Assembly (NCBI GenBank): GCA_016185075.1
Contig: JACPOH010000065.1
Coordinates: 1-33,743, forward strand
DNA length: 33,743 bases
Source: Aquabacterium sp.
GTDB taxonomy: Bacteria; Pseudomonadota; Gammaproteobacteria; Burkholderiales; Burkholderiaceae_C
Reading direction: 5' to 3'
Under the pieces are notes generated by a model. It did not search any database. It was not told where the DNA came from and saw only the letters and a program-made list of their open reading frames with translations. Made by a program: the position numbers and the translations under genes. The stretch's first letter is position 1; each line of letters starts with the position of its first letter. Shown piece by piece: positions 2,120 to 7,063 of the stretch.

Positions 2120-3154
2120 ATGTCCGAAGAAGTGAGATCCATCAAGGAAGACGCCATCGTCCCTCGCTACCGCAGCAGTGCAGCGGCCCGCATGGTCAAC
2201 ATCACGGTTGCCACCCTGCGCGTGTGGGAGCGGCGTTACCAGGTGGTGGGGCCGGTGCAGACGGCATCCGGCCAGCGGCTCTACTCCAGCCAGGATGTGC
2301 GCCGGCTGGTGTTGATCAAGCAACTGGTCAACCGAGGGCACAGCATCGGCATGCTGGCGCGCATGGAGACCGCCAGCCTGCAGGACCTCATGGATGAGGC
2401 GGACCAGACCGAGAGCGTGCTCAATGGGGACGTCGCCTTGCCGGCGCTGGTCGCCAACCCGGCGATCGACACGGGCCCGGAAGAGCTGCGCGTCTTGCTG
2501 GTGGGCAAGGATGCGGCCTTGCACTGGGCCAATGTGTTGCACGGTTTCGAGGGGGTCAAGCTGGTCAAGTCCATTGACGGCAGCCCCGCTTCAGAGCTCT
2601 CCATCAAAGGTGTGAAGGCCGACGTGTTGCTGGCCGATCTGTCTGCGCTGCACATGGACACGGTGGACTGGCTGATACGGCTGCAGCGGGTCGTCGGCGC
2701 CCGCCAACTGCTGGTTGTCTATGGCTTTGCCAGCACCCAGGTGACCGGCGCTTTGCATGCACGTGGCGCCATCCTGAGGCGCACGCCGGTGCCGGCCGTG
2801 GAACTCATGCAGGCCATGATGGATGCGGCACGCGGCTGGCGCAGTGTGGCGCGTGGCTTGAGGCATGTGCCTGACCCCGCGCCTGCACCGCGCTTTGATG
2901 CAGGCGCGCTGGCTGGCCTGGTGCAGGCCATGCCCCGGGTGGCCTGCGAGTGCCCGCAGCACCTTGCCCACCTGGTGACCATGCTGGGCCAGTTCGAGGC
3001 TTACAGCGCCGATTGCGAAAGCCGGGAACCGGCCGACGTGGCACTGCACGCTTACCTGTACCGCGTGGCCGGGCACGCGCGCGCCCTCATGGAAGAAGCG
3101 CTGGTGACCCTGGCTCAGGCCGAGGGTGTGGCCTTGCCTCAGGCCACGGCCTGA
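2120..3154 (+). CDS. MerR-family transcriptional regulator with Cys/His-containing C-terminal region
   Basis: A 344-residue protein. Residues 17-90 form a MerR-type winged helix (SSAAARMVNITVATLRVWER, then GQRLYSSQDVRRL). Residues 123-240 look like an alpha/beta Rossmann domain similar in layout to the B12-binding domains of CarH/LitR regulators, but the DxHxxG cobalamin-binding motif is not present. The C-terminus (about 270-335) has a C276-x-C278-P-x-H281 motif followed by a helical segment with another Cys, which could bind a metal or act as a redox switch. I chose the ATG at 2120 because GAGG lies just upstream and homology begins there; an in-frame start at 2027 would add 31 unsupported residues. 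The gene is divergent from the HiPIP gene and overlaps the 3' end of the convergent ABC exporter gene by 16 nt. Confidence 0.88.
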   Translation: MSEEVRSIKEDAIVPRYRSSAAARMVNITVATLRVWERRYQVVGPVQTASGQRLYSSQDVRRLVLIKQLVNRGHSIGMLARMETASLQDLMDEADQTESVLNGDVALPALVANPAIDTGPEELRVLLVGKDAALHWANVLHGFEGVKLVKSIDGSPASELSIKGVKADVLLADLSALHMDTVDWLIRLQRVVGARQLLVVYGFASTQVTGALHARGAILRRTPVPAVELMQAMMDAARGWRSVARGLRHVPDPAPAPRFDAGALAGLVQAMPRVACECPQHLAHLVTMLGQFEAYSADCESREPADVALHAYLYRVAGHARALMEEALVTLAQAEGVALPQATA

Positions 3155-4992
3155 TCGTCATCCTCGGTGTCTTCGCCCAGGAAGCCGCCGCTTTGGTGTG
3201 CCCACAGGCGCGCGTACAGGCCACCCTTGGCCAGCAGCGAGGCATGGTCGCCTTCTTCGACGATGCGGCCCTGGTCCAGCACGATGAGCCGGTCCATGGC
3301 CGCGATGGTGGACAGCCGGTGCGCGATGGCCACCACGGTCTTGCCCTCCATCAGGCGGTAGAGACTGGCCTGGATGGCGGCCTCCACCTCGGAGTCCAGC
3401 GCGCTGGTGGCCTCGTCCAGAAGCAGGATGGGGGCGTCCTTGAGCATCACGCGGGCAATCGCAATGCGCTGGCGCTGGCCACCTGAGAGCTTCACGCCGC
3501 GCTCACCCACATGAGCATCGTAGGCCGTTCGGCCCTTGGGGTCGCTCAAGGTCTGGATGAAGTCGTGTGCCTCGGCCTTGATGGCGGCCTGCACCATGTC
3601 CTGCTCGGTGGCGTCCGGGCGGCCGTACAGGATGTTGTCGCGCACCGAGCGGTGCAGCAGCGAGGTGTCCTGCGTGACCATGCCGATCTGCGCCCGCAGG
3701 CTGTCTTGCGTGACCTGGCTGATGTCCTGGCCATCGATCAGCACCTGCCCACCTTCGACGTCATAGAAGCGCAGCAGCAGGTTCACGATGGTGGACTTGC
3801 CTGCACCAGAGCGACCCACCAGGCCAATCTTTTCGCCAGGCTGGATGTGCAGGTTGAGGCCGTCGATCACCGTGCGCTCGCCGCCGTAGGCGAAGCGCAC
3901 GTTCTGGAAGCGGATGTCGCCGTGCTGCACTTTTAGCGCCTTGGCATGCGGCTGGTCCAGCACCGTGTGTGGTCTGGCCAGGGTGGTGATGCCATCCTGG
4001 ATCGTGCCGATGTGCTCGAACAGCATGGCCACTTCCCACATCATCCAGTGTGAGATGCCATTGAGTCGCAAGGCCATGGCGGTGGCGGCGGCCACGGCAC
4101 CGATGCCCACCTGCCCATGGCTCCACAGCCACAGGGCCAGGCCCGTGGTGCTCAGGATGAGCAGCATGCTCAGCGAATGGTTGATGACCTCGAATCCGCT
4201 GACCAGGCGCATCTGGCCGTACACGGTCTTCATGAACTCCTTCATGGCCGATTGCGCGTAGGCGGCTTCACGGTTGGCATGCGAGAACAGCTTGACCGTG
4301 GCGATGTTGGTGTAGGCATCGGTGATGCGGCCGGTCATGGTCGAGCGGGCATCGGCCTGTTCCTTGGACTTGCGCGCCAGCCTGGGCACGAAGTAGCTCA
4401 CCGAGATCACGTACAGCGTCAGCCAGCCCAGGAAGGGCATGATCAGCCACAGGTCGAAGCGGCCTACCACCACGGTCATGGTCACGAAGTAGATGGCCAC
4501 GAAGACCAGGATGTCGGCGACGATGAAGCAGGTGTCGCGGATGGCAATGGCCGTCTGCATCACCTTGGTGGCCACGCGCCCGGCGAACTCGTCCTGGTAG
4601 AAGCCCATGCTCTGGCCGAGCATGAGGCGGTGGAAGTTCCAGCGCATCTTCATCGGGAAGTTGCCGGCCAGTGCCTGGTGCTTGATCACCGTCTGCAGCA
4701 GCACGGCCAGCGGGCTGGCCAGCAGGATGAGGGCCAGCACAAGCAGCTTGTCGCGAGACTGCGTCCACAGTTGGGCGGGCGGCACCTGGCTGAGCCAGTC
4801 CACCACGCTGCCCAGCATGTTGAACAGCAGGGCCTCGAACGCGCCGATGGCCGCGGTGAGCGTGGTCATGCCCAGGATGAAGCGGCGCTGCCCATGCGTG
4901 CCGGCCCACACGAAGGCCAGAAAGCCTTTGGGCGGCACCGCTGGGGGCGTATCGGGGTAGGGGTCGATCAGTCTTTCAAACCAGCTCAGCAC
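3139..4992 (-). CDS. ABC exporter, fused membrane and ATPase domains (MsbA/MDR type)
   Basis: A 617-residue half-transporter. An N-terminal six-helix ABC membrane domain (about residues 30-330) is followed by a nucleotide-binding domain with Walker A GRSGAGKST (near 391), signature LSGGQRQRIAIAR (near 500), Walker B ILLLDEATSALD (near 520) and an H-loop in IAHRLSTI. Such proteins homodimerise in the inner membrane and export lipids, drugs or peptides; the substrate cannot be inferred. I prefer the GTG start at 4992 because GGAG sits about 8 nt upstream and the typical N-terminus LSWFERLIDPYPD begins there; a start at 5025 would add 11 residues. The gene is alone in its orientation between a convergent regulator gene and the upstream ion channel gene. 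Confidence 0.92.
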   Translation of the reverse strand: MLSWFERLIDPYPDTPPAVPPKGFLAFVWAGTHGQRRFILGMTTLTAAIGAFEALLFNMLGSVVDWLSQVPPAQLWTQSRDKLLVLALILLASPLAVLLQTVIKHQALAGNFPMKMRWNFHRLMLGQSMGFYQDEFAGRVATKVMQTAIAIRDTCFIVADILVFVAIYFVTMTVVVGRFDLWLIMPFLGWLTLYVISVSYFVPRLARKSKEQADARSTMTGRITDAYTNIATVKLFSHANREAAYAQSAMKEFMKTVYGQMRLVSGFEVINHSLSMLLILSTTGLALWLWSHGQVGIGAVAAATAMALRLNGISHWMMWEVAMLFEHIGTIQDGITTLARPHTVLDQPHAKALKVQHGDIRFQNVRFAYGGERTVIDGLNLHIQPGEKIGLVGRSGAGKSTIVNLLLRFYDVEGGQVLIDGQDISQVTQDSLRAQIGMVTQDTSLLHRSVRDNILYGRPDATEQDMVQAAIKAEAHDFIQTLSDPKGRTAYDAHVGERGVKLSGGQRQRIAIARVMLKDAPILLLDEATSALDSEVEAAIQASLYRLMEGKTVVAIAHRLSTIAAMDRLIVLDQGRIVEEGDHASLLAKGGLYARLWAHQSGGFLGEDTEDDDQAVA

Positions 4993-5071
4993 GGCAGGGG
5001 CTCCGCAAGGGCGCCACGCGCCCATAAGCGCCCAAGGGTACCGTGTTTGCGCCTGCGCGGCGCACGGTGGC

Positions 5072-5968
5072 CTATTTGGCGCTGACGGCGGCCTGCTGCA
5101 TGGGCGATCCCACCTTCAGGTGCTGGTCACTGTCGGCCATGGCGGCCAGCAACTGCCGGGCGTTTTCCTTGCCGACGGCCGCTTCGGCCAGCAGGAACCC
5201 GCCGACTTCGCCCACGCCCACCACAAGGTCGGCGCCAGCCGCTTCGAGGTACACACGCTGACCGGGGTCGAGCAATTCGGCAATGATGCGGGCGTCGCGG
5301 TTGCTGGTGCGTGCCACCATGCAGTTGACGGCGGTCAGCGCGTCGGCGTTCTGCTTTTCTGCATAGTTGGCCAGCACCACGATGGTGGCGGCTTGAGGCA
5401 GGCAGGCACGCTCTACGCACTCGCCGCGGATGGGGTAGCTGGCCCGCGTGAACAGCAGCAGCGGGTCATCGATCGGCTTGTGGTCCAGATCGGCCATGAC
5501 CACGATGGGCGCGTGCGCAAAGCGCGCTTCGTGGCGAAGGTTGCGGATGATCTGCGGCCCCTTGATGTTCCAGCCAACGATGACGATGTGTTCGCTCAGC
5601 TTGTGCATTTTCAACCCCATGTCTTCCTTGACCTTGCGCTCGATGAGGACAGCGGCCGCCAGCGCGCACAGCAAGGCGGTCAGCAGTTTGGACAGGATCA
5701 GGGCAATGCCCACGACGATGCGCCCGGGCAAGGTAACGGGCTGCACGGCCGAATCCCCGGAGGTCGTCATCGTGACCAGGATGCCGTAGAAGGCTTCGCC
5801 GAAGGAATGAACGCGCGCGCTGTGCCCCGACTCGAAGTAGTAGACCAGCGCGGCGCCGGCCACCCACATGAGGATGAAGATGCCGGTCAGCTCGACGATG
5901 AAGCGGTAGCGTGCCACCGCCATCAGCCGCATGAACAGGGCCAGAAGGCTGGTCCGCGAAGTCACCAT
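5072..5968 (-). CDS. Two-TM ion channel with RCK (TrkA-N) domain and non-canonical filter
   Basis: A 298-residue protein with the layout of a bacterial K+ channel: TM1 (about 23-45), a pore loop, TM2 (about 84-108), then a cytosolic RCK/TrkA-N domain starting with SEHIVIVGWNIKGPQII, whose glycine-rich loop would bind NAD or another nucleotide. The pore loop aligns with the usual TTVGYGD filter region but reads TTSGDSA (TTSGDS at residues 68-73, bases 5750-5767), so three of the four VGYG residues differ. It is therefore ion-channel-like, but K+ selectivity is doubtful. The ATG at 5968 has GGAG about 7 nt upstream; an in-frame TTG at 6031 is less likely. It lies 79 nt upstream of the exporter gene on the same strand, so the two may be co-transcribed. 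Confidence 0.88.
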   Translation of the reverse strand: MVTSRTSLLALFMRLMAVARYRFIVELTGIFILMWVAGAALVYYFESGHSARVHSFGEAFYGILVTMTTSGDSAVQPVTLPGRIVVGIALILSKLLTALLCALAAAVLIERKVKEDMGLKMHKLSEHIVIVGWNIKGPQIIRNLRHEARFAHAPIVVMADLDHKPIDDPLLLFTRASYPIRGECVERACLPQAATIVVLANYAEKQNADALTAVNCMVARTSNRDARIIAELLDPGQRVYLEAAGADLVVGVGEVGGFLLAEAAVGKENARQLLAAMADSDQHLKVGSPMQQAAVSAK

Positions 5969-6070: not shown

Positions 6071-6988
6071 TCAATAGATTTCCGGCACGATCATGCTTTG
6101 CGGCACCGGCTGGCGGATGTAGTCCTCGCGGCGCTCGCGCGGCGGCAAGCCCACAGGCGGGTGCTCGATTTCGTGATACGGCATTTGCTGCAGCAGATGG
6201 TGGATGCAGTTCAGGCGTGAGCGCTTCTTGTCCACGGCCTGCACGACCCACCAGGGCGCCTCGGGGATGTGGGTGCGCTCCAGCATCACCTCCTTGGCCC
6301 GCGTGTAGTCTTCCCAGCGTCGGCGGCTTTCAAGGTCCATCGGGCTGAGTTTCCACTGCTTGAGCGGGTCCTGGATGCGGGCCAGGAAGCGCGCCTCCTG
6401 CTCATCGTCCGACACGGAGAACCAGTACTTGATGATGCGGATGCCACTGCGCACCAGCATCTTCTCGAACTCGGGCACGGAGCGGAAGAACTCTTCGAGC
6501 TCATCGTCGCTGCAAAAGCCCATCACGCGCTCGACGCCGGCGCGGTTGTACCAGCTGCGGTCAAACAACACGATCTCGCCGGCGGCGGGCAGGTGGGCCA
6601 CATAGCGCTGGAAGTACCACTGGGTCTTTTCGCGGTCGTTGGGGGCGGGCAGGGCGGCCACTCGGCACACGCGCGGGTTCAGCCTTTGGGTGATGCGCTT
6701 GATGGCGCCGCCCTTGCCGGCCGCATCGCGCCCCTCGAACAGCACGACCACACGCTCGCCTGTGTGCACCACCCAGTCCTGCAGTTTGACGAGCTCGCCT
6801 TGCAGGCGAAACAGCTCGCGGAAGTACATGCGGCGGGTGTCGCGGGCCTCCGGGCTGAGCGCCAGCGTGTCGCCGGCCAGCAGGCGATCGTCGATCTCCA
6901 TCTCCAGCTCTTCGTCGTAGCTGTCGATGACGTCATCCTGCAGGCGGCGCAGCAGATCCGGGTCGATGGGGGGGATGGGGTGGGTCAT
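6071..6988 (-). CDS. ppk2: Polyphosphate kinase 2
   Basis: A 305-residue PPK2-family protein, which transfers phosphate between inorganic polyphosphate and nucleoside diphosphates (mainly forming GTP or ATP from polyP) in the cytosol. It has Walker A GRDAAGKGG (86-94), the Walker B/catalytic segment LFDRSWYNRAGVERVMGF (141-158) and a lid-type helix DYTRAKEVMLERT. Length and motifs fit the single-domain class of PPK2. The ATG at 6988 begins the conserved reading MTHPIPPIDP; a GTG at 7030 would extend it by 14 residues with no better ribosome site. The gene is divergent from the acyltransferase gene, and the 137-nt gap holds a palindrome. It fits a polymer-storing lifestyle also suggested by the PHB depolymerase gene. 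Confidence 0.95.
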   Translation of the reverse strand: MTHPIPPIDPDLLRRLQDDVIDSYDEELEMEIDDRLLAGDTLALSPEARDTRRMYFRELFRLQGELVKLQDWVVHTGERVVVLFEGRDAAGKGGAIKRITQRLNPRVCRVAALPAPNDREKTQWYFQRYVAHLPAAGEIVLFDRSWYNRAGVERVMGFCSDDELEEFFRSVPEFEKMLVRSGIRIIKYWFSVSDDEQEARFLARIQDPLKQWKLSPMDLESRRRWEDYTRAKEVMLERTHIPEAPWWVVQAVDKKRSRLNCIHHLLQQMPYHEIEHPPVGLPPRERREDYIRQPVPQSMIVPEIY

Positions 6989-7063
6989 GGAGCGCTTCGG
7001 AACGTGAATGCAAACGGAATAAGCTGCCACGCTGGCGTGTCAGTTTGATGATTGGGTGATTTC

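Follow-up and report, generated by a model that had tools for sequence, protein, structure and literature searches.

The filter sequence VGYG of K+ channels is replaced in several described channels. NaK has the filter TVGDG with only two sites and is non-selective, and K+ selectivity arises when its TVGDGN is converted to TVGYGD or TVGFGD (PMC8689586). CNG channels carry TIGETPPP, and a NaK chimera with a CNG filter shows Ca2+ block (PMC5052707); a CNG mimic shows an interaction between Glu66 of the filter and Tyr55 in the pore helix (PMC6091977). An acid also follows the Gly in the filters (LGD) of polycystins (PMC6056229). The plant proteins CASTOR/POLLUX/DMI1 have four predicted TM segments and two tandem RCK domains per subunit; CASTOR has the filter ADS(A)GNHA, its 2TM construct gave a PCa/PNa of about 30 and its D265N mutant gave no current (PMC6697748), showing that gating by an RCK ring does not require TVGYG in the pore. 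NaKTs of Tsukamurella paurometabola, a bacterial 2TM channel obtained by genome mining, is Ca2+-activated and non-selective, and its proline-rich filter, LPMGNGPLSP, is according to its authors found in no other channel (PMC5052707); non-selective 2TM channels with odd filters thus exist in bacteria. ADP and NAD+ activate the RCK channel GsuK and Ca2+ inhibits it (PMC3510474), so Ca2+-responsive and nucleotide-responsive RCK domains both exist.

The window analysed here, a stretch of 33,743 nucleotides of Aquabacterium sp., encodes a 298-aa channel protein on its minus strand (Table 1). The 2TM-pore-RCK layout proposed in a preliminary description of this DNA was borne out by Pfam, with Ion_trans_2 (29.2 bits, cut-off 22.5) passing clearly above its cut-off and TrkA_N (24.1 bits, cut-off 23.8) passing narrowly. 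The ORF listing begins this frame at an upstream TTG (6031), but the ATG was taken as the gene start; a GGAG, read by eye, lies 7 bases ahead of it, and the same Met begins the Aquabacterium homologs. An AF2 model, with the window sequence and L003–L006 as input, has the layout of two TM helices and a re-entrant pore loop in the pore part (block pLDDT 67–83 for residues 21–100, and 69–83 for residues 21–50). Since the mean pLDDT was 47 (<50 in the RCK domain), neither the filter geometry nor the orientation of Lys94 was taken from the model. Elsewhere in the window, the plus strand encodes a MASE3-GGDEF-EAL protein (12–1646) whose MASE3 domain matched only from profile position 144, its N-terminal side seemingly cut by the contig start.

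Table 1. Features of the SGD-type channel gene and its neighbours in the window
Feature	Position	Strand	Remarks
2TM-pore-RCK channel gene	5072..5968	-	ATG at 5968; 298 aa; stop counted in
TM1, residues 25-45 (approx.)	5834..5896	-	Pfam match from residue 30/31; helix in AF2 model
Pore helix, residues 57-69	5762..5800	-	
Filter TTSGDS, residues 68-73	5750..5767	-	Where TTVGYG is expected
Lower TM2, residues 93-111, SKLLTALLCALAAAVLIER	5636..5692	-	17 of 19 columns invariant in 8 members
Invariant Lys94	5687..5689	-	One residue past the usual hinge-Gly site
RCK N-terminal Rossmann lobe and next helix, residues 127-275	5144..5590	-	TrkA_N and profile matches
ppk2 (polyphosphate kinase 2), upstream, co-directional	6071..7030	-	Pfam PPK2 (1.3e-110), TIGR03707, synteny
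MsbA-like ABC exporter, downstream, co-directional	3139..5025	-	Pfam ABC_tran, ABC_membrane

The pore loop, GILVTMTTSGDSAVQPVT, aligns without gaps to those of VGYG relatives from the pore helix through the conserved Pro. As the preliminary description stated, three of the four filter residues differ (V to S, Y to D and the second G to S), with Asp in place of Tyr; the SGDS-type filter lies where it had been placed, its residue-to-base positions having been worked out by hand. The motif is kept in a clade, with Thr-Ser-Gly-[Asp/Glu] in all 8 distinct members (identical copies dropped) from two genera, and it persists down to 54–57% identity. The clade filters read TTSGDSAVQP (4 members), TTSGDASVQP (1), TTSGDSAVVP (1) and MTSGEVGIAP (2). 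T69, S70, G71, P77 and T79 are invariant; position 72 is Asp in 6 members and Glu in 2, an acid thus following the filter Gly, in the Tyr position, throughout, and no member has the TxGYG/TxGFG signature. Other channel-like matches with odd filters read TTMGSQYWP (L016, genome G052), TIGLGEIP (L078, G630) and SGTGLSDITP (L086, G035).

Members of the clade include the isolate Aquabacterium fontiphilum CS-6 (L006). A contig scan gave four Aquabacterium relatives of the window channel with 70–88% identity, and whole-genome searches found members in the window's own genus (6 of 42 genomes, window counted) and in another genus of the family (2 of 6 genomes). The genome draws were overlapping samples (genus, 42; family, 200 and 399; order, 399; phylum, 398; class, 321; relatives of the clade genome G021, 149). 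No further members were found in the order draw (E<=1e-20), the class draw (E<=1e-14), the phylum draw or the G021 relatives, and the family draw of 399 genomes yielded three already-known members and one VGYG match. Of 37 phylum-level rows, 7 lacked a locus and 1 was the window; the 29 loci read had VGYG (28) or LGYG (1). The 46 pattern stretches from a scan of virus contigs included no relative of the channel, and tblastn against plasmids and phages gave no match to it. Searches of open-access literature turned up no description of the clade. As far as sampled, the clade appears from these searches to be narrow and within one family, its carriers being a small group of freshwater bacteria.

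The clade was compared position by position with 46 other homolog rows, a set that was chosen for its resemblance to the clade or to the clade's first member, with identical rows dropped and two RCK-only matches and one TMG-SQ filter included, and that is not unbiased. Forty-three of these rows have V/L-G-Y/F-G (37 TVGYGD, 3 TVGFGD, and one each of TLGYGD, TVGYGE and SVGYGD), one has TMG-SQ and two lack the region. Position 70, Ser in all 8 clade members, is V42, L1 and M1 in the other rows (2 gaps); position 72 is Y40 and F3 (3 gaps); position 73, S5/V2/A1 in the clade, is G43 and S1 (2 gaps); and position 74, A5/G2/S1 in the clade, is D42, E1 and Q1 (2 gaps). Outside the filter, position 62 is G4/A2/Y2 in the clade, Gly or Ala being in the Aquabacterium members, and W37, Y5, F1 and M1 elsewhere (2 gaps). 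We take this position to be the site of KcsA Trp68, which supports the filter Tyr; the Trp position and the filter Tyr were lost together in 6 of the 8 members. At the hinge-Gly site (position 93), all 8 members have Ser, and the other rows have G37, L3, F3 and I1 (2 gaps). Lys94 is found in 8/8 members and in none of the 46 other rows (4 gaps); its counterparts in the alignment are MthK Ile84 and KcsA Ile100, both of them cavity-lining residues. Equivalence of Lys94 to the rectification controller of Kir channels (Asp172) was considered and is not claimed, passages of a review (PMC4145359) lending it no support. Tyr61, kept in 6 members and replaced by Phe in 2, has the same spacing to the filter acid as Tyr55 to Glu66 in the CNG mimic; because Tyr is also usual in the other rows (38/46), this is compatible with a CNG-like arrangement and not diagnostic of it.

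The earlier description of the RCK domain as apparently normal holds only in part: TrkA_N, the N-terminal Rossmann lobe, matched all 8 members but in the window protein covers only residues 128–250 of the 298, no member matched TrkA_C at E<=0.01, and the glycine motif is GWNxKG, the usual Rossmann motif being GxGxxG. Some channels with a Rossmann RCK lobe have no C-lobe. Ion_trans_2 matched 6 of the 8 members at E<=0.01. When the 8-member profile was searched against solved structures, the best relatives among the best 60 of 69 matches were BK (1.2e-9), MthK (4.7e-6), the CASTOR RCK (1.6e-5) and Kv; for the window channel, phmmer ranked MthK first. No NaK or CNG chain was among those 60 matches, and since kinship beyond the motif was not found there, membership in these families is not claimed. 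E231 aligns with the Glu of MthK RIIAE and, in a hand alignment, E183 (Asp in the clade genome G630) may stand in place of MthK Asp184; both MthK residues are Ca2+ ligands, and the third MthK ligand is not kept in the clade. The RCK ligand of the channel could possibly be Ca2+ or a nucleotide.

The clade channel thus has a two-helix pore followed by RCK, like MthK, an RCK-gated K+ channel of archaea, and BK/Slo, but differs from them in having no VGYG, a Ser for the hinge Gly with Lys just past it, no RCK C-lobe match and no conserved third Ca2+ ligand of MthK. With NaK and CNG it shares the loss of VGYG and an acid directly after the filter Gly, whereas their Val/Ile is Ser in the clade and the second Gly of NaK is Ser, Ala or Val; moreover, NaK is not known to have an RCK. 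CASTOR/POLLUX/DMI1 resemble it in combining an RCK ring with a non-TVGYG pore containing a filter Asp, but in place of the tandem RCKs and ADS(A)GNHA of CASTOR the clade has one RCK N-lobe and TSG[DE]. NaKTs, also bacterial and 2TM, likewise has a filter very unlike TVGYG; unlike the NaKTs filter, the SGD motif is kept by a clade.

Close pairs of clade members are under purifying selection: dN/dS (NG86) was 0.049–0.169 among the window, L003, L004 and L005 and 0.085 for the G021–G630 pair. Values for distant pairs reached 0.66, where dS is probably underestimated, and only close pairs were therefore taken as evidence of selection. The filter codons vary synonymously between species. The reading frame is open in 7 of the 8 members; that of G630 (L032 / L065) has an internal TGA replacing an otherwise conserved Trp of TM1, attributable to recent disruption of the gene or to an error in the assembly.

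The order ppk2, channel, ABC exporter on one strand was found in the window, L003, L004 and L005; in A. fontiphilum CS-6 (L006, genome G590), the channel follows ppk2 with no ABC gene nearby. The ABC exporter of the window scored below the cut-offs of TIGR02204 and TIGR02203. A ppk2 match was obtained in 34 of the 42 genomes of the genus, and among the 30 loci read the channel lies between ppk2 and the ABC exporter in 4 and after ppk2 only in 1; all five are SGD-type, and no VGYG homolog with these neighbours was found. The other 25 loci have no tblastn match to the channel at E<=1e-5. In 16 of them an ABC gene begins 1–134 bases after ppk2, in one (L120) the two genes are 1184 bases apart and separated by another reading frame, and the remaining 8 show no ABC gene within the sequence available. 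Downstream sequence was short in two loci (L113, 509 bases; L102, 158 bases), and genome-wide searches of these two genomes found no clade member. A close relative, G159, whose PPK2 is 94% identical, has an empty site, the bases after its ppk2 stop resembling by eye those after the channel stop in the window. The channel-less ppk2 loci, the adjacency of ppk2 and the ABC gene and this empty site mark the channel as an accessory gene or cassette. The ppk2–MsbA-like exporter pair itself recurs in Aquabacterium (16/30 loci), with no obvious functional link. The reading frame between the two genes in L120 (2418–3611, opposite strand, 397 aa), at a place that in other species is empty or occupied by the channel, looks by eye like a candidate outer-membrane phospholipase A, and the ppk2 genes of L103 (G608) and L109 (G612) each contain one internal TGA.

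A joint operon function with PPK2 was not adopted, as most of the ppk2 loci read have no match to the channel and the channel also occurs where no ppk2 was found. The channel-bearing genome G591, listed as 99% complete, had no PPK2 match at E<=1e-120; no ppk2 was found in 16 kb around the channel of G021, which has other neighbours there, or in 8,965 bases of G630, where about 316 bases of contig precede the channel match, too few to show the upstream neighbour. At least one ordinary V-G-Y/F-G channel is encoded in seven clade genomes (G000, G590, G591, G599, G605, G607 and G021), so the SGD channel is not the sole channel of these cells; the window's own genome has a VGYGD channel on contig C382. 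In G630 the sole listed Ion_trans_2 match reads TIGLG.

On the parallels with NaK, CNG, polycystins, CASTOR and NaKTs, our best reading, held with moderate confidence, is that the gene encodes a cation channel, gated through its RCK, in which the four-site K+ filter has been lost and which is most likely non-selective, and by analogy it likely works like NaK and CNG. In such a channel, i) the subunit would assemble as a tetramer, ii) the Ser-Gly-[Asp/Glu] turn would retain the lower filter, i.e. the Thr and the first Gly, iii) four carboxylates would form a ring where the Tyr ring stood, iv) the resulting filter would be shorter, wider and hydrated, v) the pore would pass Na+ and K+, with divalent block or some Ca2+ permeation, and vi) a ligand on the cytosolic RCK ring would open it. 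Also in favour are the invariant T69, S70 and G71 with an acid at 72 in 8/8 members, the low dN/dS of close pairs, the joint loss of the Trp position and the filter Tyr, and the ordinary channels present in seven clade genomes. The earlier suggestion that the channel may pass a different ion fits the acid conserved where Tyr would stand, a feature seen in NaK and CNG too, but is qualified by the readings weighed below in which K+ is still conducted or nothing is. Counting against the preferred reading are the variation after TSG within the clade (S/A/V at 73, A/S/G at 74), from which the filter may matter little, and the putative cavity Lys ring, which would repel cations; the TGA in TM1 of G630, the dN/dS values of distant pairs and the low pLDDT of the AF2 model are further points against it. 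We also entertain, tentatively, a new pore type in which a ring of four filter Asp/Glu residues and a cavity ring of four Lys would combine with ligand-controlled passage of Na+ and/or Ca2+, with the Lys ring serving as an inbuilt rectifier or keeping out divalents and polyamines.

The main rival, to which we give a fairly low probability, is a non-conducting pseudo-channel, either a tetrameric membrane sensor or a dominant-negative subunit, whose filter drifted after conduction was lost while the conserved TM2 and RCK pass on a signal or assemble with another protein. Its main support is the contrast between lower TM2 (Table 1) and the filter and post-filter region, in which 4 of 10 columns are invariant (0 of 19 in the C-terminal tail); the invariant Lys at the expected cavity site and the loss of the second filter Gly and the next Asp point the same way. 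Lower conservation of the filter than of TM2 counts against a finely tuned filter, but it also seems to fit a loose, non-selective one. Moreover, five residues in and just after the filter are invariant, and the acid at 72 is kept across two genera, making free drift unlikely to explain the filter.

It is less probable still that the protein is an RCK channel permeable to or selective for Ca2+, equivalent in function to plant CASTOR/DMI1. The acid in the filter, the profile match to the CASTOR RCK and the need for the filter residue Asp265 for current in CASTOR (PMC6697748) speak for it. However, that match concerns the RCK, the sole part contained in those CASTOR entries, and BK and MthK match better; the acid comes after Ser-Gly in the clade and before Ser/Ala-Gly in CASTOR; and a Lys ring would disfavour divalents. 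That the protein is still a K+ channel with weak selectivity, as retention of Thr69 and Gly71 of the lower filter and the K+ conduction of its solved 2TM-RCK relative MthK might suggest, is very unlikely, since NaK, which has Asp here, is non-selective and acquires K+ selectivity once given TVGYGD or TVGFGD (PMC8689586). An assembly or sequencing artefact or a dead gene can be given hardly any credence: although the window is an entire contig from an 82%-complete assembly in 411 contigs, the motif occurs in 8 members including an isolate, with synonymous codon changes and low dN/dS in close pairs.

If the channel conducts, it would be a natural experiment in which the scaffold of an RCK K+ channel has changed its selectivity by having its filter swapped and its gating part retained. 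The protein is small, at 298 aa, and both homologs 54–87% identical and relatives with the empty site are available. Its study would show to what extent selectivity is lost when an acid takes the place of the Tyr, and what effect a charged Lys beneath the filter has. A conducting channel would also provide a bacterial case of RCK-gated non-K+ channels, which are now known from plants (CASTOR).
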